Shown here: positions 1-20,457 of the stretch, piece by piece
Position numbering within the stretch: the stretch's first letter is position 1
Layout of the letters: each line of letters starts with the position of its first letter
Virus record (IMG/VR): IMGVR_UViG_3300018868_000057
Span: 1-20,481 of that record
Source: a virus
Length of the DNA stretch: 20,481 bases
Reading direction: 5' to 3' (one strand)
Program-made: the position numbers and the translations under genes
Notes under the pieces: generated by a model
What the model was told of the DNA's origin: nothing
Database searches by the model: none
The model's input: only the letters and a program-made list of their open reading frames with translations

Positions 1-204
1 ATTGCCAAGGGCAGGAAAGAGGCGATCAAACTAGCTTGGAATCGGGACTTGTTTCGTGAGAAGATTATGGATTTCATTGAGGGCAAGACAGAAGCAGACA
101 GAGATGCGGCCACAAATATAGTCTCTAACATCTTGGACGAAGCCCAGAAAGGCAAGGTAGAGGCCATACCAGCACCTCACCAAGCCGAACTGGGAAACGC
201 CTAA
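1..204 (+). CDS. Tail assembly chaperone, gpG-like (3' end only)
   Basis: The frame is open from the first base and ends at TAA 202-204, leaving 67 C-terminal residues. The remnant is charged and helical-looking (AWNRDLFREKIMDFIEG, then EADRDAATNIVSNILDEAQKG). On its own it is not diagnostic. The call rests on context: the last codons carry a canonical slippery heptamer (192-198) followed by a hairpin, the downstream -1 frame encodes a T-like domain, and a tape-measure-like gene follows at 1221. In lambda-type phages this protein (gpG) and its frameshifted form (gpGT) chaperone tail assembly by binding the tape measure and tail tube protein, and neither remains in the virion. The 5' end lies outside the window. 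Confidence 0.7.
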   Translation: MAKGRKEAIKLAWNRDLFREKIMDFIEGKTEADRDAATNIVSNILDEAQKGKVEAIPAPHQAELGNA

Positions 205-241
205 CGCCAGCGGGAACAGCCAGCTTTGTGTTCTCGTTGGC
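192..241 (+). promoter_or_regulatory. Programmed -1 ribosomal frameshift signal
   Basis: The heptamer GGGAAAC (192-198) sits in the correct phase of the upstream gene (G GGA AAC), two codons before its TAA stop. After a 7-nt spacer, 206-218 pairs with 229-241 as an uninterrupted 13-bp stem (two G-U pairs, 210/237 and 213/234) with a 10-nt loop (219-228). Slippery site, spacer length and stem match the known architecture of -1 signals; lambda G/T uses the related GGGAAAG. The GTG at 228 sits at the loop/stem boundary, which argues against independent initiation there. Confidence 0.87.
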
Positions 242-410
242 AGAAAAAACTGGATGGAGCGTGGACTATATCTTATGGGAGTTGCCTCTCGCCCTTATGA
301 CACAAGCGAGCCACGCCTATCTCTGGATGAATGGGGTGAAGTGTCGCAGGGTTGGGGGCGTAGCGGGAGAAGAATTAGTGAACCTAGAAAAACTTCTGGG
401 GCTAACTTAA
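198..410 (+). CDS. Frameshifted T-like extension of the tail assembly chaperone
   Basis: This is read as the -1 extension of the gene ending at 204, so the full product would be join(<1..198,198..410). The -1 frame has been open since base 129. The extension contains FSLAEKTGWSVDYILWELPL followed by an Ala/His/Tyr stretch and the segment LWMNGVKCRR. The pattern of Trp, then D-x-I-L-W-E-x-P-L, is typical of the short second protein that precedes tape measures in siphophages. If it were a separate gene it would have to start at GTG 228, which has no Shine-Dalgarno sequence and lies inside a predicted hairpin. Expected role: in the GT form, recruiting tail tube subunits onto the tape measure complex. 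Confidence 0.8.
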   Translation, partial: RLTPAGTASFVFSLAEKTGWSVDYILWELPLALMTQASHAYLWMNGVKCRRVGGVAGEELVNLEKLLGLT

Positions 411-426
411 CATAAAGAAGAATCTT

Positions 427-1215
427 ATGGGCAATTTCTTCAAGCTAGACGCAAGAGAGTTTAATAGGACGATTGACCTATACCTAGACCTAACTAACAG
501 AGATAGGATTGACGAGTTGAATCGCAGGGCGGCCAACATCTGTGCAAGGGCGGCAGGACTAACCCCAAGGGCAAATTTGGAAGATATTGTCAATGATATG
601 AAGGCAAGCCAATCAACTAAATATCTCAAAACCACAAAGAAAAGGGGAACATATTTAGCAGAACGCAAGGGCAAAAATCCCAAGATTACTTATTTTGCAG
701 AAAAAGCAAAGGCAGTAGAGGCTTTTGCAATAGCAAATTGGAGGCTTGCTAGGGGAAAGAGGATGGGCTTTTATAGTGGCAAGCGACCATTCCCAAATAA
801 ACTTGCGGGGCCGGGGAGGGGTAAAAGGGGTGGAACAGCGAGTGAGTTTTATAACAAGTTTGTTAAGCGGGCTAGATCATCTGCTGGATATATTGCGGCT
901 GGATGGTTGCCAGCGTATTATCATTTTAGTAATTTAGTGGGCAGAAAGGCAAAACCAATGGCAATAGATAGGAATTTAGCCAAATACTTTAGGGCATTAA
1001 AAGGAAGTGCTGGGTTGGGATTTGGAATTGAGAATGTTCTTGCGGCTGGTGAGGTAGTAAAGGCGGTGTTTGTTAATGCGGCCTCTGGAATCGGCAAGAT
1101 AGGGCGGGGGGCATTGCAAGACGCCATCAATGCAGAAGAGGCCGATATGAAGATAAAGATTGCACAAAAGCAACAAGAGATTGCTGACAAGGTCAATAGG
1201 ATAAGAATAAGGTAA
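427..1215 (+). CDS. Basic tail-module protein, unknown (262 aa)
   Basis: Family not recognised with confidence. The start ATG 427 has context TCTTATG with only a weak purine stretch upstream. The N-terminal third is helical and charged (RDRIDELNRRAANICARAAG). The middle is rich in Lys/Arg/Gly (ending GPGRGKRGG), then comes an aromatic segment, SSAGYIAAGWLPAYYHF, reminiscent of the RAGFLxxGWxPA motif of some minor tail or neck proteins. The C-terminus is a long helix (AEEADMKIKIAQKQQEIADK). It lies between the chaperone frameshift region and the tape-measure-like gene, a place where most siphophages have no gene. A minor tail structural or tail-completion role is inferred from position only. 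Confidence 0.75.
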   Translation: MGNFFKLDAREFNRTIDLYLDLTNRDRIDELNRRAANICARAAGLTPRANLEDIVNDMKASQSTKYLKTTKKRGTYLAERKGKNPKITYFAEKAKAVEAFAIANWRLARGKRMGFYSGKRPFPNKLAGPGRGKRGGTASEFYNKFVKRARSSAGYIAAGWLPAYYHFSNLVGRKAKPMAIDRNLAKYFRALKGSAGLGFGIENVLAAGEVVKAVFVNAASGIGKIGRGALQDAINAEEADMKIKIAQKQQEIADKVNRIRIR

Positions 1216-1220
1216 TATAT

Positions 1221-2474
1221 ATGGCTTTTGTATTAAAAGGAGAAGTTCAAATTGACGGAAGCAAGGCCACGGCTGGCTTGCGAGGGGTTCAGCAACAAGC
1301 CACAAAGACGGCAAATACATTTAGACAGTCAGACGCAAATGCTCAAAAATTAGGCAAAACCCTTGTTGGTCTTGGGCTTAATGCGAGCAGGGCAGGGGCA
1401 TCCCTTGGTATGTTGGCTAGGCTTGGTACTGGTGGAATCTTCGGGTATGCAGTAATTGGGGCGATGAACAAGTTTGGCGAAACCGTCAAACAAGCCTCAA
1501 CTGATTATTACTCTGCACAGAAAGACCTTGCTGATGCCTTTGAAACATCCTTCAAAAGCACATCGGTTGAGCAAGCCCAAGCGGGACTAGAAAAGACTCA
1601 AGATACAATCGAAAGATTGCGAGGAGAGACTACGCAACTTGGGCCTCTTTTTAGTAGGTTAGGCAAAAATATAGAAAGTCTTTCTGGTATAAGTCTTGGG
1701 ATAGGAAGCAGAGAAAAGTCATTAGAGCAAGCCAATCAAGAGCTAATTTTGCAAGAGGATATTCTTAAATTAAGACAATCCGAAAAGAAGGATAAAGAGG
1801 CCAGAGATAGGGCAGAATCTCAAATCAAGTTCGACAAGATGATTTTCTATGCAGAACAAAAGCTAGCCGACCAATCAGAGGCAAGGGAGAAAAAGACAGA
1901 GCAGGAAAGAGTGCAAAGAAAGATAGACAACAACAACCGCATTTATAGGGAAGAACGCTACAACATAGACGAAAAAATTAAGATAGAAAGCGATGCTGAT
2001 GATAGGAAATTTCAGCGTCTAATCCGTGATGCAAATAGGGCAAGGGAACAACAGAAAAGAACCTCTGAAACGGCCTCTGGCACGGCGGGTGGTGTGCTTG
2101 GCGCAAGCAGGGCTGGGCAACAAGCCCTTGATGTAGCTAGAAAACAAAGGGAACGACAACTCAAGACAGAGAATTTTAAGGTTGCCGAGAAGATTGCCCC
2201 AACCCAAAGGGACAGAGAAAAGCTAGCCGCACAGCAAGCCGCAGGGGAAATGCCCTCTTTAGGTGAGCAGATTCGTGGGGGTTTAAGTGGGGTTGACCCA
2301 TCACAACTTGCTAGGGAAGCGGCGGCAAGTAAGTTTGAGAAGGATAGGACTTTCACAAGGGGGACTACTCAATCTGGCAAGCTAGGCGAAGAACAAAGTT
2401 CACTATCAGCAGAAACTCTGACAGCAATCAAGGCTCTAGTGGATTTAATGAAATCTGGAACGGTTGTTAAATAA
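1221..2474 (+). CDS. Tape-measure-like tail protein
   Basis: The 417-residue protein opens with LKGEVQIDGSKATAGLRGVQQQATKTANTFRQ, the usual N-terminal style of tape measure proteins (beta strand, then D-x-S/x-A-x-x-G-L and a helix). A Gly/Ala/Leu hydrophobic segment follows (about residues 55-85, including GTGGIFGYAVIGAM), then a long charged coiled coil (about 90-280, rich in Glu, Lys, Arg and Gln) and an Ala/Gly/Ser-rich tail. Tape measures set tail length and enter the cell envelope at injection. At the usual ~1.5 angstrom per residue this one would measure a short tail of about 60 nm. Position after the frameshifted chaperone supports the call. Its shortness means a tail-internal scaffold cannot be excluded. 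Confidence 0.72.
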   Translation: MAFVLKGEVQIDGSKATAGLRGVQQQATKTANTFRQSDANAQKLGKTLVGLGLNASRAGASLGMLARLGTGGIFGYAVIGAMNKFGETVKQASTDYYSAQKDLADAFETSFKSTSVEQAQAGLEKTQDTIERLRGETTQLGPLFSRLGKNIESLSGISLGIGSREKSLEQANQELILQEDILKLRQSEKKDKEARDRAESQIKFDKMIFYAEQKLADQSEAREKKTEQERVQRKIDNNNRIYREERYNIDEKIKIESDADDRKFQRLIRDANRAREQQKRTSETASGTAGGVLGASRAGQQALDVARKQRERQLKTENFKVAEKIAPTQRDREKLAAQQAAGEMPSLGEQIRGGLSGVDPSQLAREAAASKFEKDRTFTRGTTQSGKLGEEQSSLSAETLTAIKALVDLMKSGTVVK

Positions 2475-5014: not shown

Positions 5015-5692
5015 ATGGCCTTTCTGTTTCCCAAATCCTTTCCTTTCTGCATAGCCCTAGAAGAAGAAACAAAGGATATTCCAGTAGGTTCTGGAACAGA
5101 ATACCCAATCGGAATGAGCCTAGCCGACGCAATGTTTCTTTTTTGGAAAAGCAAAACATTTTCATCCACAGTAAATTTTACTGGTACTGCCGTAGTCGGC
5201 CCACCAACCAGCCAATCCTTTACATCAACTTATTCTCAAGATGGCGTATTAAATCAAGCAGAAGAGGTGGTGTGGCCGAACAAAATGTCTGAAATGATTT
5301 GCGACCCTAATTCAAATTATTTCCGTGGAGAAGCAACTGGGACTGGCAGTATTACAGATGTGTTTGGCCCAAGCCTCGGTACAACTGTTATTCTTTTCCT
5401 CGGTGACATAATAATTAGGGACAAGAAATTCTATCCATCCATTGAAGTTGCTTCTTTTGTTGAAGGGTTTGGAGGAGGATTTCTTCAAGGTGCAAGGATT
5501 AGCTCTCTTCTACCCGAGCCGCCCTATGGCTCAAATATCCCCATACAAATTGCCGATGCGTTAAAAATAAACATTAACGAAACAGAGTATAAGGGCGATT
5601 TATTTATGGTGATAAATGTTACCGATCTGCCTGCACCCCCGCCTACTGCATCCTTTGTGATAAATGGACTTGTTGATCGTGAGGCCGCATAA
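5015..5692 (+). CDS. Tail-module protein after fibre gene, unknown (225 aa)
   Basis: Starts at ATG 5015 in the context CCTTATG without a Shine-Dalgarno sequence. The N-terminus (FPFCIALEEETKDIPVGSGT, then YPIGMSLADAMFLFWKSKTF) reads as a compact domain, followed by beta-rich sequence with aromatic residues (FVEGFGGGFLQGARISSLLP). There is no signal peptide or clear transmembrane helix. Family not recognised. Position directly downstream of the fibre-like gene and upstream of the lysis module suggests a second fibre/baseplate component or a fibre-assembly protein, but no motif distinguishes these. Confidence 0.7.
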   Translation: MAFLFPKSFPFCIALEEETKDIPVGSGTEYPIGMSLADAMFLFWKSKTFSSTVNFTGTAVVGPPTSQSFTSTYSQDGVLNQAEEVVWPNKMSEMICDPNSNYFRGEATGTGSITDVFGPSLGTTVILFLGDIIIRDKKFYPSIEVASFVEGFGGGFLQGARISSLLPEPPYGSNIPIQIADALKININETEYKGDLFMVINVTDLPAPPPTASFVINGLVDREAA

Positions 5693-5725
5693 TCTATTGC
5701 CACCCCTTGACACCCCCCCCTTCTT

Positions 5726-5896
5726 ATGAGCCAAATCTTAACCTTCATTCAGTCTCAAGATATGTTTGCTTGGGTGGGTGCGTTGGTTGCCCTCCTTTCT
5801 GCGGTGATTGCCGTTGCCTCTTTGATACCCGGTGACGAGCCGGAGAACACGCTCCAAAAGATTGTCGATTTCCTCTCGAAGTTCTCACGGAAATAA
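5726..5896 (+). CDS. Small one-helix membrane protein, holin-like
   Basis: This 56-residue gene starts at ATG 5726 (context TCTTATG) after a C8 run at 5713-5720. A single hydrophobic helix (about residues 14-34, AWVGALVALLSAVIAVASLI) is followed by an acidic turn (PGDEPENT) and an amphipathic basic helix (LQKIVDFLSKFSRK). One-helix proteins with a short N-terminus and a charged C-terminal helix fit the broad class III-like holins. It is the first of four consecutive genes leading to the M15 endolysin, which is the main support for a lysis role. Holins form membrane lesions that release endolysin or collapse the proton-motive force. It could also be an unrelated membrane peptide. Confidence 0.65.
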   Translation: MSQILTFIQSQDMFAWVGALVALLSAVIAVASLIPGDEPENTLQKIVDFLSKFSRK

Positions 5897-8670: not shown

Positions 8671-9240
8671 ATGACATCCTTCCACCTCCCCGCAAGACCG
8701 CAAGCCTCCACAGTTCCAGCATCTCACATCGAGTTCAAAAAAGATACAGCCATTGAGGGCAAGGCGAATGGCTGGCGCGGATTGTTCGATCAAGAAACCA
8801 AGCAAGGCTACAACCGCCACGGCAAGTTCGCCTCAAATCATAACTTAATGGCCGAGAGGATTCTTGGTGCTGGAATCAAATCCCGCTTTGTCGATTGTGA
8901 GATTATGGGGCAGAGGACAAGGACTGGCAAAGGAACTATCGTGGTAATGGATGCCTTCGACCCAGCCAACCCCAAACCCTACGCCGAAAGGATGAAGGAG
9001 ATCGAACACATCGAAGCCGTGACCTTTGATGTGCCACAGAACAAGCTCCTCCGATTTGTTCAGCTTGCCCACCACAAGATCAATTCGATATGGGAGGAGA
9101 TGAACTTTCAAAACAACAAGGCGGGGGAAGTTATCTGGGAAGGCTTCGTGATGAAGGCTCTGGATGACGGCAAGTATCCTTATATCACCAACCCAAACTA
9201 CTGCTCGCCCTCGTGGCAGAAACAGAGGATTCGCTGGTGA
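8671..9240 (+). CDS. Minimal ATP-dependent DNA ligase-like nucleotidyltransferase
   Basis: The 189-residue protein shows the motifs of the DNA ligase/mRNA capping superfamily in order: motif I K31-A-N-G34 followed by WRG (nucleotide-accepting lysine), Ia-like NRHGK (48-52), III FVDCEIMG with Glu77 (73-80), IIIa IVVMDAFD (90-97), IV E157-G-F-V-M-K162, and V near SPSWQKQRIRW (179-189). It stops directly after motif V, so the OB-fold domain and motif VI of ordinary ligases are absent. Motif I has Asn where most ligases have Asp (KxDG). It probably seals nicks in phage DNA, possibly with a separate partner, but RNA or other nucleotidyl transfer is possible. No Shine-Dalgarno sequence precedes the start. 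Confidence 0.8.
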   Translation: MTSFHLPARPQASTVPASHIEFKKDTAIEGKANGWRGLFDQETKQGYNRHGKFASNHNLMAERILGAGIKSRFVDCEIMGQRTRTGKGTIVVMDAFDPANPKPYAERMKEIEHIEAVTFDVPQNKLLRFVQLAHHKINSIWEEMNFQNNKAGEVIWEGFVMKALDDGKYPYITNPNYCSPSWQKQRIRW

Positions 9241-9461
9241 TTATTTTCCTAGTCGCTTTCTTTGGGCTTCTGATTCTGCAAGGCGTGAGGATATTCGCAA
9301 AGCACATCGACCAGCAGAACTATGAGAGGCGCAAGTTTTATTTATTCGTGGCCGCCGAGCTAGATAAGATGGATAAGATCGTTGCCGAGGGCAACCAGCC
9401 AAAAGAACCGAAGCAACCAGAGCTAGTCCTTCCTAGCAAGAACTGGGTTGGGCGTAACTAA
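9237..9461 (+). CDS. Single-helix membrane protein, unknown (74 aa)
   Basis: GTG 9237 overlaps the ligase stop (GTGA) and has AGAGGA 6 nt upstream, so I prefer it over GTG 9213, which lies 24 nt inside the ligase gene. The N-terminus is a transmembrane helix (VIIFLVAFFGLLILQGVRIF), followed by a charged helical region (QQNYERRKFYLFVAAELDKM) and a Lys/Pro/Glu-rich tail (NQPKEPKQPELVLP). The topology is probably N-out/C-in. No family is recognised. It abuts the nuclease gene with no gap. Confidence 0.65.
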   Translation: MIIFLVAFFGLLILQGVRIFAKHIDQQNYERRKFYLFVAAELDKMDKIVAEGNQPKEPKQPELVLPSKNWVGRN

Positions 9462-12987: not shown

Positions 12988-13281
12988 ATGAACGAACCCT
13001 TCACATCCTCAGAGGCAAAGGCCAAGGGCATTTTATCCGACCGCTACCCCGGCAAGGAGATGTCGAAGCTCTATGCCGAGAACCGCAATCAAGCGACTAT
13101 CGATATGTTGAGGGATGCCGTGTTCACTTTGATTACTAACGAGATTCCCACTTGCACGATTGCCCAAGTTCTTCGCAAAACCCACGGAGCAATCCAGTAT
13201 CACCTCCGCTATCTTGAGGGGGACGGCAAACTCAAGAGACGCAACAAGCGATGCCATTGGCGGGAGGCCGTTGAAGCGTGA
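12988..13281 (+). CDS. Small winged-helix-like protein (97 aa)
   Basis: ATG 12988 follows a 55-nt non-coding gap. The C-terminal two thirds look like a winged helix: DAVFTLITNEIPTCTIAQVL, then RKTHGAIQYHLRYLEGDGKL and the basic end KRRNKRCHWREAVEA. The AxQYHLxxLExxGxL pattern is that of ArsR/MarR-like recognition helices. Its stop overlaps the GTG of the methyltransferase (GTGA), so the two are probably co-translated, and it could regulate that gene. Exact family unknown. Confidence 0.68.
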   Translation: MNEPFTSSEAKAKGILSDRYPGKEMSKLYAENRNQATIDMLRDAVFTLITNEIPTCTIAQVLRKTHGAIQYHLRYLEGDGKLKRRNKRCHWREAVEA

Positions 13282-14246
13282 ATGAAAACCCAACCCACCT
13301 CGACTTGTTCAGCGGTATTGGAGGATTTGCTCTTGCCGCTGGATGGGCTGGATTTGAAACCGTTGGGTTCTGCGACAACGAACCCTACGCACAAGCCGTC
13401 CTCAAAAAGCATTGGCCTAGTGTCCCAATCCACGAAGACATCAAAACGCTCGATGGCACGGCATATCGAGGAGTCACTCTTCTCACAGGAGGATTTCCCT
13501 GCCAGCCGTTCAGTTGTGCCGGGAAGCAACGAGGCAAGGACGATGACCGCTATCTCTGGCCGCAAATGCTCCGAGTCATACAAGAGGCAAGGCCAGATTG
13601 GATCGTTGGTGAGAATGTTGCTGGCATCATCGGCTTGGCACTCGACAAAGTGTGTTCTGATTTGGAAGCGTGCGGATATGAAGTCGAGCCGATCATTATT
13701 CCAGCTTGCGGTGTCGATGCCCCGCACAGAAGAGACAGGGTTTGGATTATGGGCAACGCCAAATTCAATGGACACTCTGCCAGCAAGAACGGAAGCGGAT
13801 TGCTCCACAAATCAGAAGAACAGACAGGGGAGATCGAGGAGCGGGAATCTTCGGGAGCAAGTTGTTCATCCAAAAATGTGGCCGACTCCAAATGCGATGC
13901 CAAGGGGAGCGCATACAGGCAAGATGAGCGGAAAAGTCAGCGAGGACGGGAAAACAAGAATATCATCGAACGGAACGAGGCGGGGAGCAACCTTGCAGAC
14001 GGCGGCAAAGATGTGGCCTACCCCAACGGTGGACAATTCAGCCAATGTGAATCCCAAGGACAACAGATTCAGATGCCTTGTCAGAGCGGTGAACGAGTCT
14101 GCGGTGTGCGATGGCTCGCTGAACCCGGCTTGGGTCGCTTGGCTAATGGGATACCCAACCGAGTGGCTAAACTTAAAGGACTGGGCAACGCCATCGTCCC
14201 GCAAGTCGCATACCAAATTATCAAAGGCATAAGAGAGCTTCTATGA
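13278..14246 (+). CDS. DNA (cytosine-5) methyltransferase
   Basis: The 322-residue enzyme has the C5-methyltransferase motifs: I D9-L-F-S-G-I-G-G (SAM binding), IV GGFPCQPFS with catalytic Cys75, VI G-E112-N-V, VIII H-R-R151-D-R-V-W-I, and X G-N-A-I-V-P-Q-V (about 303-310). Between VIII and X (about 160-285) the target-recognition region is Ser/Gly/Glu/Lys-rich with repeated N/D-V-A-D/Y motifs (NVADSK, DVAYPN). It transfers a methyl group from SAM to cytosine C5 in a recognition site not predictable here, probably protecting phage DNA from host restriction. The GTG start overlaps the previous stop. The gene is covered in the +1 frame by the 13282 frame. Confidence 0.93.
   Translation: MNENPTHLDLFSGIGGFALAAGWAGFETVGFCDNEPYAQAVLKKHWPSVPIHEDIKTLDGTAYRGVTLLTGGFPCQPFSCAGKQRGKDDDRYLWPQMLRVIQEARPDWIVGENVAGIIGLALDKVCSDLEACGYEVEPIIIPACGVDAPHRRDRVWIMGNAKFNGHSASKNGSGLLHKSEEQTGEIEERESSGASCSSKNVADSKCDAKGSAYRQDERKSQRGRENKNIIERNEAGSNLADGGKDVAYPNGGQFSQCESQGQQIQMPCQSGERVCGVRWLAEPGLGRLANGIPNRVAKLKGLGNAIVPQVAYQIIKGIRELL
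13282..14232 (+). CDS. Overprinted protein in the +1 frame of the methyltransferase gene
   Basis: The frame is open for 316 codons inside the methyltransferase gene, starting at ATG 13282, 4 nt after the methyltransferase GTG. Its product has organised features, not shadow-like ones: SLFSQEDFPASRSVVPGSNE, SAWHSTKCVLIWKRADMKSS, LFQLAVSMPRTEETGFGLWA, two MWPTP repeats (199 and 244) with a WATP (157), and SLNPAWVAWLMGYPTEW (279-295). I recall proteins with this order (SSAW-S-T-x-C-x-L-x-W-K, F-Q-L, MPRT, LWPTP, LNPxWVxWLMGxP) near or over phage cytosine methyltransferases, sometimes as separate genes. The known function is unclear; it could modify or partner the methyltransferase. Confidence 0.62.
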   Translation: MKTQPTSTCSAVLEDLLLPLDGLDLKPLGSATTNPTHKPSSKSIGLVSQSTKTSKRSMARHIEESLFSQEDFPASRSVVPGSNEARTMTAISGRKCSESYKRQGQIGSLVRMLLASSAWHSTKCVLIWKRADMKSSRSLFQLAVSMPRTEETGFGLWATPNSMDTLPARTEADCSTNQKNRQGRSRSGNLREQVVHPKMWPTPNAMPRGAHTGKMSGKVSEDGKTRISSNGTRRGATLQTAAKMWPTPTVDNSANVNPKDNRFRCLVRAVNESAVCDGSLNPAWVAWLMGYPTEWLNLKDWATPSSRKSHTKLSKA

Positions 14247-18383: not shown

Positions 18384-18685
18384 AACGCTCGCCCCTCAAA
18401 CGCAAAACCCCACTCAAGCGAGGCGGGAAACTACGCCGAGTGTCTGCCAAAAGACGAAAACAAAACGAGGTCTATTCTGATGTGCGAGAGAAGTTTTTGG
18501 GCAACACGCCAGTCTGCCAAGTTTGCCAGAGCAAGATGGCGAGCCAAGTTCACCATAGGCGAGGGAGGTTCGGGGATAGGCTAAACGAGGTTGAGTTTTT
18601 CTTGGCGGTTTGCTTTGAGTGCCATCACAAAATCCATATGAACCCAGCGTGGGCGTATGCAAAAGATTATCTGGTTAAGAGATGA
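18380..18685 (+). CDS. HNH endonuclease-like protein
   Basis: This 101-residue protein has a basic N-terminus (about 28 residues, Lys/Arg-rich), then C46-Q-V-C49, Q-V-H58-H59-R-R-G-R, and L-A-V-C78-F-E-C81-H-H-K-I-H86 followed by P-x-W-A. This is the zinc-braced ββα-metal (HNH) nuclease layout of small phage nucleases. HNH proteins beside terminase genes commonly assist genome packaging by cutting with the terminase complex, which fits the position immediately upstream of the large subunit. Start and stop are both coupled (ATGA). Confidence 0.85.
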   Translation: MKRSPLKRKTPLKRGGKLRRVSAKRRKQNEVYSDVREKFLGNTPVCQVCQSKMASQVHHRRGRFGDRLNEVEFFLAVCFECHHKIHMNPAWAYAKDYLVKR

Positions 18686-20457
18686 ACATCGGGGCGTTCA
18701 GCCGAAGTTTCTTTGAGCCAAGAGAGCAACTATCAATTCCAGAATGGGCAGAGAAAAACCTTACGCTCTCGGCAAGGGTAACGAACATACCCGGAGCATA
18801 TTCAACAACCCTCACGCCCTATGTTCGTGAACCCCTAGAGGCTTTTGGAGATGATTCGATTCGGAGGGTTGTTCTTGTCTGGGGGGCGCAGACCTCAAAG
18901 ACGACAACCATTCTCGCTGGCTTAGCCTACCGAGTAGCAGAGCGACCTTGCCCAGTCTTGTGGGTGATGCCTTCGGAACATCTAGCCCGATCATTTACAG
19001 AAACCCGCTGGCTTCCGATGGTGGACGATTGCCCAGCCCTAGCCAAAGAACGGCCAGAAAATACAGACCGAATCAAAATCCTAGAGCAACATTTTAAGCG
19101 ATGCTCGGTCTGGTGGGCGGGAACAAGTGCCTCGGCTCTTTCTAGTCGCTCGATTGCTTTACTCTGTATGGATGAGGTGGACAAGTTTCCAGAGCAAGCA
19201 GGGTCGGGGAGGGAGGCCAATCCGGTGCAGTTAGCAGAAGCACGAGTCAGCACCTACCCGAACCATCTCATCATAGCAACCAGCACCCCCACAACTGCCG
19301 ACTCAATAATTTGGGCTGAATGGCAGAAGGGCGACATGCGTTTCTATTTTGTCCCTTGCCCCCATTGCGGATTAAAACAAAAACTAATCTGGGGGCAAGT
19401 GAAGTGGGATGAAGCCGCAAAGATTGAGGATGGAGTTTATGATTATGCCCTAGTAAAATCCTCGACCTACTACGAGTGCGAAGGGTGTAAGGGCAAGATT
19501 CAAGACGGCCAGAAAGCCAAGATGCTCCGAGAGGGGGAGTGGAGGGCAACCAATCCCAAGGGTGAACCAGCTAGACGCTCGTATCACCTCAACGGCCTAT
19601 ACGCTCCGTGGGTATCCTTCGGGAGCTTAGCAGTCAAGTTCCTACAAGACAAACACAGCGGGATTATCGGCCTACAAGATTTTGTGAACCGAGTCCTAGC
19701 CGAGCCGTGGATGGAACACGAATCAGAAAAGATGCAGATCGTTCCCGGTGCTTACAAGATGGGCGAGGTTCGGATGGGCGATAAGCTGATTATGAGTTGC
19801 GACATTCAAGAGGCTGGGGGCTTCCACGCTTGGTGCGTTGTGAGGGCTTGGGATTTAGAGGGCAAACCAAGGCTTGTGTGGGCGGGTAGGCTAGAAACTT
19901 GGGGGGATATAAAGGCAAAACAAGATGAGTTTGGGGTTGAGGATAAGTGTGTCTTAATCGATTCGGGCGATCAAACCCGAGATGTATATTTGAATTGTTG
20001 CAAGAACGGCTGGGTAGCGTTGGTCGGTTCGGACAAGACCAGCTTCTCCGAGATCGTGAACGAGCAGAAGGTGCAAAGGCCATACGCTCGAATCGCAAAT
20101 GGCGACCCCTTCTCTGGTAAGGCAGTTCAATCCAAGGCGGGGTGGAAGTGGAAGCTCTGCCCGATTTGGCGATGGTCGAACCCATCCATCAAAGACATCC
20201 TCTCCCAATTATTGAAAGAGGAGGGATTCATCGCCCTAGACACGCCCGATGTCTGGAAGGTGCATATCGAAGCAGAGGTGAAGGTGAGGGTGAAAAATCC
20301 TATGACTGGCAGGGAAAGACTTGTGTGGAAGCAAATCGGGAAGCATAATCATTTAATGGATTGCGAATGTATGAACATCGTGGGGGCGGCACTCCACGGA
20401 CGGCTCAAAGTTTCACCCGCAAGTTTGACAGAGGAGGTTGAGAATGGCGAAGGGTGA
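18682..20457 (+). CDS. Terminase large subunit (GpA-like)
   Basis: This 591-residue packaging motor/nuclease is of the lambda gpA type. The N-terminal ATPase has Walker A W67-G-A-Q-T-S-K-T74, Walker B ALLCMDEVD (159-167) and the coupling motif ATSTPT (199-204). Zinc-knuckle-like pairs C226-P-H-C229 and C266-E-G-C269 lie between the domains. The C-terminal RNase-H-like nuclease shows Asp374 (IMSCDIQEAG) and Asp427 (LIDSGDQTRD), with a third acidic residue probably in NHLMDCECMN. The length is close to the family norm (about 600-640). The Walker A has Ser where GpA proteins usually have Gly (Q-x-G-K-T). ATG overlaps the HNH stop. Confidence 0.95.
   Translation: MNIGAFSRSFFEPREQLSIPEWAEKNLTLSARVTNIPGAYSTTLTPYVREPLEAFGDDSIRRVVLVWGAQTSKTTTILAGLAYRVAERPCPVLWVMPSEHLARSFTETRWLPMVDDCPALAKERPENTDRIKILEQHFKRCSVWWAGTSASALSSRSIALLCMDEVDKFPEQAGSGREANPVQLAEARVSTYPNHLIIATSTPTTADSIIWAEWQKGDMRFYFVPCPHCGLKQKLIWGQVKWDEAAKIEDGVYDYALVKSSTYYECEGCKGKIQDGQKAKMLREGEWRATNPKGEPARRSYHLNGLYAPWVSFGSLAVKFLQDKHSGIIGLQDFVNRVLAEPWMEHESEKMQIVPGAYKMGEVRMGDKLIMSCDIQEAGGFHAWCVVRAWDLEGKPRLVWAGRLETWGDIKAKQDEFGVEDKCVLIDSGDQTRDVYLNCCKNGWVALVGSDKTSFSEIVNEQKVQRPYARIANGDPFSGKAVQSKAGWKWKLCPIWRWSNPSIKDILSQLLKEEGFIALDTPDVWKVHIEAEVKVRVKNPMTGRERLVWKQIGKHNHLMDCECMNIVGAALHGRLKVSPASLTEEVENGEG
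20431..20437 (+). promoter_or_regulatory. Strong Shine-Dalgarno sequence (GAGGAGG)
   Basis: GAGGAGG lies inside the terminase gene 6 nt before ATG 20444 and fixes the start of the next, truncated gene. Confidence 0.8.

Follow-up and report, generated by a model that had tools for sequence, protein, structure and literature searches.

Chaperone systems of the G/GT type make both G and GT. GT is the minor product, is absent from virions, and binds both the tape measure and the tube protein. The G/GT frameshift of phage lambda is reportedly the subject of the original papers of Levin (1993) and Xu (2004). In lambda, a minority of ribosomes slip to produce GT, with the G part binding the tape measure and the T part binding the tube protein, as described in PMC5009743. 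Phage P2 (E/E+E'; AF063097.1) likewise has a -1 frameshift just upstream of its tail-length gene, as is proposed for the locus described here, at a different heptamer, TTTTTTG. Escherichia coli dnaX and IS911 are other genes serving another purpose, and they resemble this locus in that a slippery site is followed by a stimulatory stem-loop; dnaX has in addition an upstream Shine-Dalgarno-like stimulator (for both, PMC5009743 and PMC3711429).

We analyzed a complete viral record of 20,481 bases, referred to below as the window. Its 5' end falls within the first gene, which leaves just the C-terminal 67 residues of G. An earlier note, made from the nucleotide sequence alone, had described a -1 frameshift signal in a tail chaperone at this end of the record. 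We conclude that the site very probably directs a programmed, hairpin-stimulated -1 ribosomal frameshift that would yield two tail assembly chaperones, G and GT, in the manner of lambda. The identification draws on the phase of the heptamer, its conservation, covariation within the hairpin and gene order, and from these we infer ribosomal slippage, its rate and the chaperone roles of the products. The mechanism is a textbook one; the contribution here lies in the virus group and in how strong the evidence from its members is.

The probable shift signal and its closest known counterparts

The following features were read or predicted at the start of the window.

1..204, + strand: G-like putative tail assembly chaperone, zero frame, C-terminal 67 residues; cut by the contig start, with a complete 126-aa homologue in the relative L009 (5824-6204)
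192..198, + strand: slippery heptamer GGGAAAC, in phase with G as G_GGA_AAC; read directly, with an in-phase heptamer in relatives
198..410, + strand: T-like domain, the -1 frame extension, 70 aa after the slip (RLTPAG...LLGLT), from homologues and alignment; part of the proposed GT fusion
199..205, + strand: 7-nt spacer, which includes TAA (202-204), the stop codon of G; read directly
206..218, + strand: 5' arm of the predicted 13-bp stimulatory stem, from folding, covariation and the recoding test
219..228, + strand: 10-nt loop, from folding
229..241, + strand: 3' arm of the 13-bp stem, from folding, covariation and the recoding test
427..1215, + strand: 262-aa gene between T and the tape-measure candidate; no significant family match
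1221..2474, + strand: tape-measure candidate, 417 aa, assigned by position

Direct reading bore out the earlier claim of a GGGAAAC heptamer in the right phase near the G stop: the G frame ends CTG GGA AAC GCC TAA, with one sense codon between heptamer and stop. The 7-nt spacer, the stem of 13 uninterrupted pairs, two of them G-U (210-237 and 213-234), and the 10-nt loop were likewise all present as the note had given them. When the RNA of positions 185-260 was folded, exactly the 206-218/229-241 stem was returned as both the minimum-energy and the centroid structure (-24.1 kcal/mol), the result that the note had predicted. The -1 frame stays open over positions 129-410, and the post-slip peptide begins RLTPAGTASFVFSLAEKTGWSVDYILWELP; homologues are kept in the -1 frame, in agreement with the proposal that this frame continues as a T-like protein. 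Both of the overlapping frames, the second in -1, are conserved as coding in relatives.

The signal shares several features with lambda G/GT, namely a heptamer of the GGGAAA type close to where the upstream frame ends, a -1 extension, and a gene order in which a tube gene (V in lambda, a tube-like candidate in relatives of the window) lies upstream and the tape measure gene (H) downstream, although the order in the relatives contains two additions compared with V-G-T-H. The lambda heptamer, GGGAAAG, stands 15 nt before the G stop, whereas that of the window stands 3 nt before it. The two also differ in what follows the heptamer. When the region was recoded synonymously, we found no stable structure behind the lambda site (z +0.91 at 42 nt) or the P2 site (z +0.18 at 42 nt), in contrast to the covarying 13-bp hairpin of the window, in a comparison whose 42-nt length was picked to span that hairpin and so favors the window over lambda and P2. 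Longer stretches again gave no strong structure for either phage, with values of +0.68 (57 nt) and -1.21 (72 nt) for lambda and of -0.66 (57 nt) and -0.59 (72 nt) for P2. HK97 was left out of the comparison because the heptamer rule missed its annotated shift site. The window does have a dnaX-like feature in its stable stem-loop 7 nt after the heptamer, but nothing similar to the dnaX upstream stimulator lies just upstream of 192. Because no structure stood behind the lambda and P2 sites in the 42-nt test, the window would add a dnaX-like stimulator to a lambda-like gene pair. In the available text of the literature searched, which lay mostly outside subscription papers (including PMC5009743, PMC10885494, PMC3711429, PMC8008677, PMC12733950 and PMC4351075), we found neither a report of this virus group nor a covarying hairpin behind a tail-chaperone shift site. 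The comparison covers lambda and P2 only, and for that reason we do not claim hairpins in tail chaperones as new.

To place the stability of the hairpin, we used synonymous recoding of the -1 frame peptide, which is the proper control for a coding region, with the codon usage of the window applied to all loci. Over 42 nt the window gave a z of -4.78, with 0 of 300 recodings as stable, and a second run gave -4.90, with 0 of 2000; with 57 nt the value weakens to -2.04, and with 72 nt to -1.42. Dinucleotide shuffling of the 76 nt from 185 to 260 did not set their energy apart (z -1.51; equalled by 14 of 200 shuffles). Among 4088 stretches of 42 nt sampled from the window, just 2 were as stable. 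In-phase heptamers are not rare, as 19 were found among the 5048 codons scanned in the window, and a strong hairpin stood behind just one of the 19, the present site (-21.6 kcal/mol), the next best reaching -12.4 kcal/mol. What is rare is the combination of a heptamer with a very stable hairpin.

Conservation of the heptamer and hairpin

Searches of IMG/VR with the G part and the T part returned 24 and 45 loci, respectively. A search with the T alignment returned 123 relatives, the best 80 of which were kept, and a search with a distant member returned 11 loci, with 9 new contigs. The IMG/VR loci were picked by similarity of the T protein, not by heptamer. Two loci (L150 and L154) that lie on the same contigs as L064 and L061 were counted once, and contigs carrying only G, with T cut off (e.g. 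L008), were left out of the counts. The junction was compared in 90 records, made up of the window, the best 80 of the 123 relatives, eight distant or partial IMG/VR loci, and Akkermansia phage Moulinsart; where a record held several in-phase heptamers (3 of 90), the last was taken. A T-like match without an in-phase heptamer (L070, MT836288.1; E 0.6) and two crAss-like matches (E 0.4) were left out as not significant. The T match of Moulinsart also reached only E 0.4, and this phage was kept for its similar large terminase and fitting gene order, so the count of 99 given below includes one record chosen beyond search score.

In 99 of 99 distinct contigs or records, the best 80 of the 123 relatives included, T lay in the -1 frame with respect to a long upstream frame, and the overlap of the two contained an in-phase X_XXY_YYZ heptamer. 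Across the 90 junction records (again with the best 80 of 123), GGGAAAC occurred in 78 and CCCAAAA in 7, and GGGAAAA, GGGAAAT, GGGAAAG, CCCAAAC and AAAAAAC occurred once each. All 11 distant-member loci had an in-phase heptamer (CCCAAAA, AAAAAAA or AAAAAAT). As the changed heptamers all fit X_XXY_YYZ, the substitutions preserve slipperiness. In the same 90 records, drawn from the best 80 of 123 and the others, the heptamer stood 3 nt before the stop in 64, directly before it (0 nt) in 19, and 18 nt before it in 7.

The hairpin was conserved as well. In the minimum-energy fold of the 52 nt after the heptamer, the closing base pair, between the 8th and 43rd nucleotides, was common to 89 of the 90 records (best 80 of 123 included), so that comparison with related phages, proposed in the earlier note as a check, found both heptamer and hairpin kept in place. 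Of these 89, 82 belong to the main group and 7 to the CCCAAAA group, whose sequence there is different, and only Moulinsart was without the pair. Covariation was examined in 46 distinct main-group rows, taken from the best 80 of 123 and others. Standard pairs made up 92.3% of cells, against 30-51% in slid controls, which had 2-19 double-change cells. The stem itself had 43 double-change cells versus 10.4 +/- 3.8 in shuffles, and 0 of 500 shuffles reached 43. The double changes fell in stem pairs 5, 6, 7, 8 and 12 (e.g. G-C/A-U, C-G/G-C and C-G/U-A). Two of the five covariation measures were weak: further pair types were not raised (13 vs 13.0), and there was only a mild rise in how many pairs carried a double change (5, a figure reached by 25 of 500 shuffles). 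In the recoding test, z was below -2 in 52 of 53 distinct sequences (from the best 80 of 123 and others), with a median of -4.6; the exception was Moulinsart (z -1.72), where the hairpin is weak and not at the same place. Together, the conserved position, the covariation and the recoding values point to an RNA structure that is under selection and stands a constant 7 nt from the shift site. The trick is well known in phages; what is striking in this virus group is the strength and conservation of the hairpin that would serve it.

Among named records, only Moulinsart (ON453896.1) yielded a T-like relative (34% over 47 aa, E 0.4; 23% in the alignment). It resembles the window in having an in-phase heptamer, A_AAA_AAC, with TAG directly after it, and in its large terminase (34.6%), and it differs from the window group in its weak hairpin. 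The tape measure of this phage is annotated as the fourth gene after T, with three genes between. We also observed by iterated profile search that a homologue of the gene directly before G in the window group lies at 5415-5864 of Moulinsart (L069), here just upstream of the tape measure, which means that the region has been rearranged between groups.

Alternatives to ribosomal frameshifting

T could in principle be a separate gene whose translation, through reinitiation or coupling once G has ended, begins at GTG 228 or some other start, with the hairpin hiding or gating the start. In the Moulinsart record T is annotated as a separate gene, and start codons do lie in the T frame at 228, 237, 261, 282, 297 and later. 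On this point the earlier note, which had called GTG 228 the only possible independent start, was wrong: this codon is the first ATG, GTG or TTG in the -1 frame, ahead of TTG 237, GTG 261, TTG 282, ATG 297 and others. Nor is it conserved: in the 46 distinct rows the codon was GTG in just 21, and otherwise GTA (17), GTC (5), GTT (2) or GCT (1). Moreover, 7 of the 46 rows had no ATG, GTG or TTG in the T frame before the conserved Trp. An independent start is disfavored for these two reasons. A separate T gene would also leave unexplained why the in-phase slippery heptamer is kept in 99 of 99 contigs or records (best 80 of 123 among them) and why P4, which lies upstream of the GTG start, is invariant in 31 sequences. 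We consider this explanation very unlikely.

Slippage of RNA polymerase, rather than of the ribosome, is less probable still as the source of the longer product. Runs of at least 7 A at the site in some distant relatives would suit it, but the window and 77 of the 89 other records have GGGAAAC, which has no homopolymer longer than 3 and is a poor site for transcript slippage, and the covarying hairpin, with its constant 7-nt spacer, is in keeping with a structure that stimulates ribosomal slippage. As a separate observation, the distant relatives with such A runs at the shift site are L151, L152 and L155-L160, and in these polymerase slippage may add to or replace the ribosomal event.

We give equally little credence to other readings of the hairpin, whether as a terminator of transcription, as a site of processing, or as something that merely follows from the peptide encoded there. 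Stems of about this size are common in terminators, but no terminator-like site was found on either strand in 1-600, the stem is not followed by a U tract, and the hairpin had no match in Rfam. If the structure were a by-product of the peptide, synonymous recodings should fold as well, and they fold less well (0 of 300 as stable). Finally, a single frame split by sequencing or assembly error or by gene decay, which one contig alone could not have excluded, is refuted by the identical frame break in 99 of 99 contigs or records (including the best 80 of 123 and a named phage record), and its probability is negligible.

Identity of G, T and neighboring genes

Pfam and PHROG searches with G and T gave no significant match. 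The best named chaperone family, Phage_TAC_7, reached E 0.069 with 1 of 14 members, and phrog_103 ("tail protein") reached E 0.034 at best with 2 of 14; neither is significant. A family of unknown function, phrog_11996, matched 14 of 15 T members weakly (best E 1e-3). A structural model of G (pLDDT 81) had no fold match in the PDB, and its top BFVD matches were mainly unnamed viral proteins. A family match is not required, as known tail chaperones share low similarity (PMC5009743). The tail-chaperone identity given in the earlier note is supported by gene order in relatives, not by sequence.

That order is a tube-like gene, one gene, G/T, one gene and the tape measure, and among relatives the number of other genes separating T and the tape measure ranges from one to three. 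The tube-like gene is a conserved 115-aa gene situated about 0.78 kb upstream of the heptamer, two genes before it, in relatives (94 loci, some on the same contig), and it falls outside the window. In the PDB the best matches of its model (pLDDT 69) were for the most part proteins from the tail tube, neck or baseplate of phages and related particles, including the tubes of R4C, SPP1 and lambda; the scores were weak (best E 5e-3), and when VIA-align was used on the model, ribosomal protein S24e ranked equal to the tubes. Judging from the predicted fold, this is probably the tail-tube gene.

Downstream, the second gene after T was recognized as a tape measure in three relatives (L148, E 6e-22; L064, E 2.4e-12; L058, E 4.3e-14). 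The window gene at 1221-2474 had no family match, and the syntenic protein of L009 (7214-8641) had no PHROG match. These two proteins are 90% identical over the C-terminal 228 aligned columns, but by BLASTP their N-terminal halves have no similarity, a pattern that suggests mosaic exchange inside the tape-measure candidate. In a host search, genome contigs were scanned with the T alignment and the large terminase, and no relative was found.

Proposed mechanism and implications

Under programmed -1 frameshifting, the majority of ribosomes would finish G at its TAA (202-204). The 13-bp hairpin, 7 nt ahead, would stall a ribosome whose P and A sites are occupied by GGA and AAC, respectively, and GT would be the minority product of those ribosomes that slipped. 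By analogy with lambda, G would coat the tape-measure protein while the T domain of GT would recruit tail-tube subunits.

A more speculative idea, which we regard as doubtful, is that the hairpin drives frameshifting at an unusually high rate, which would give a G:GT ratio that is itself unusual and is suited to a short tail, and that ratio, hairpin strength and tail length co-evolve. The tape-measure candidate of the window has 417 aa, those read in relatives have 475-620 aa, and lambda H has 853 aa. If the idea were true, the group would form a natural series for testing frameshift efficiency against tail length.

A probable tail chaperone, and hence a tail module, is identified here in a virus group whose G and T lie outside curated families, and gene callers would miss T or start it wrongly. 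With its covarying hairpin, the group also lends itself to studying how the G:GT ratio is set by a stimulatory structure, lambda being without such a structure in the same test.

Other features of the record

The gene at 18682-20457 encodes a large terminase (PF05876, E 7e-62; phrog_15, E 2.6e-109). The nearest annotated records are about 25-35% identical, including those of Paenibacillus phage Pd_22F and Akkermansia phage Moulinsart.

Two forward open reading frames, 13278-14246 (322 aa) and 13282-14232 (316 aa), overlap almost completely in different frames. The first encodes a C5-cytosine methylase (PF00145, E 2.6e-44), and a Pfam search with the second gave no match. The second half of the latter contains repeated WPTP stretches and GSLNPAWVAWLMGYPTEW, which we take to resemble real protein; on account of this protein-like half, the region may be dual-coding.

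An in-phase CCCAAAC at 9192-9198 lies near the end of a 189-aa open reading frame (8671-9240). From this heptamer the -1 frame is open through a small membrane-protein-like open reading frame (9213-9461) to 9461, and the fold behind the heptamer is weak (-7.6 kcal/mol). This is possibly a second frameshift site, or it may have arisen by chance.
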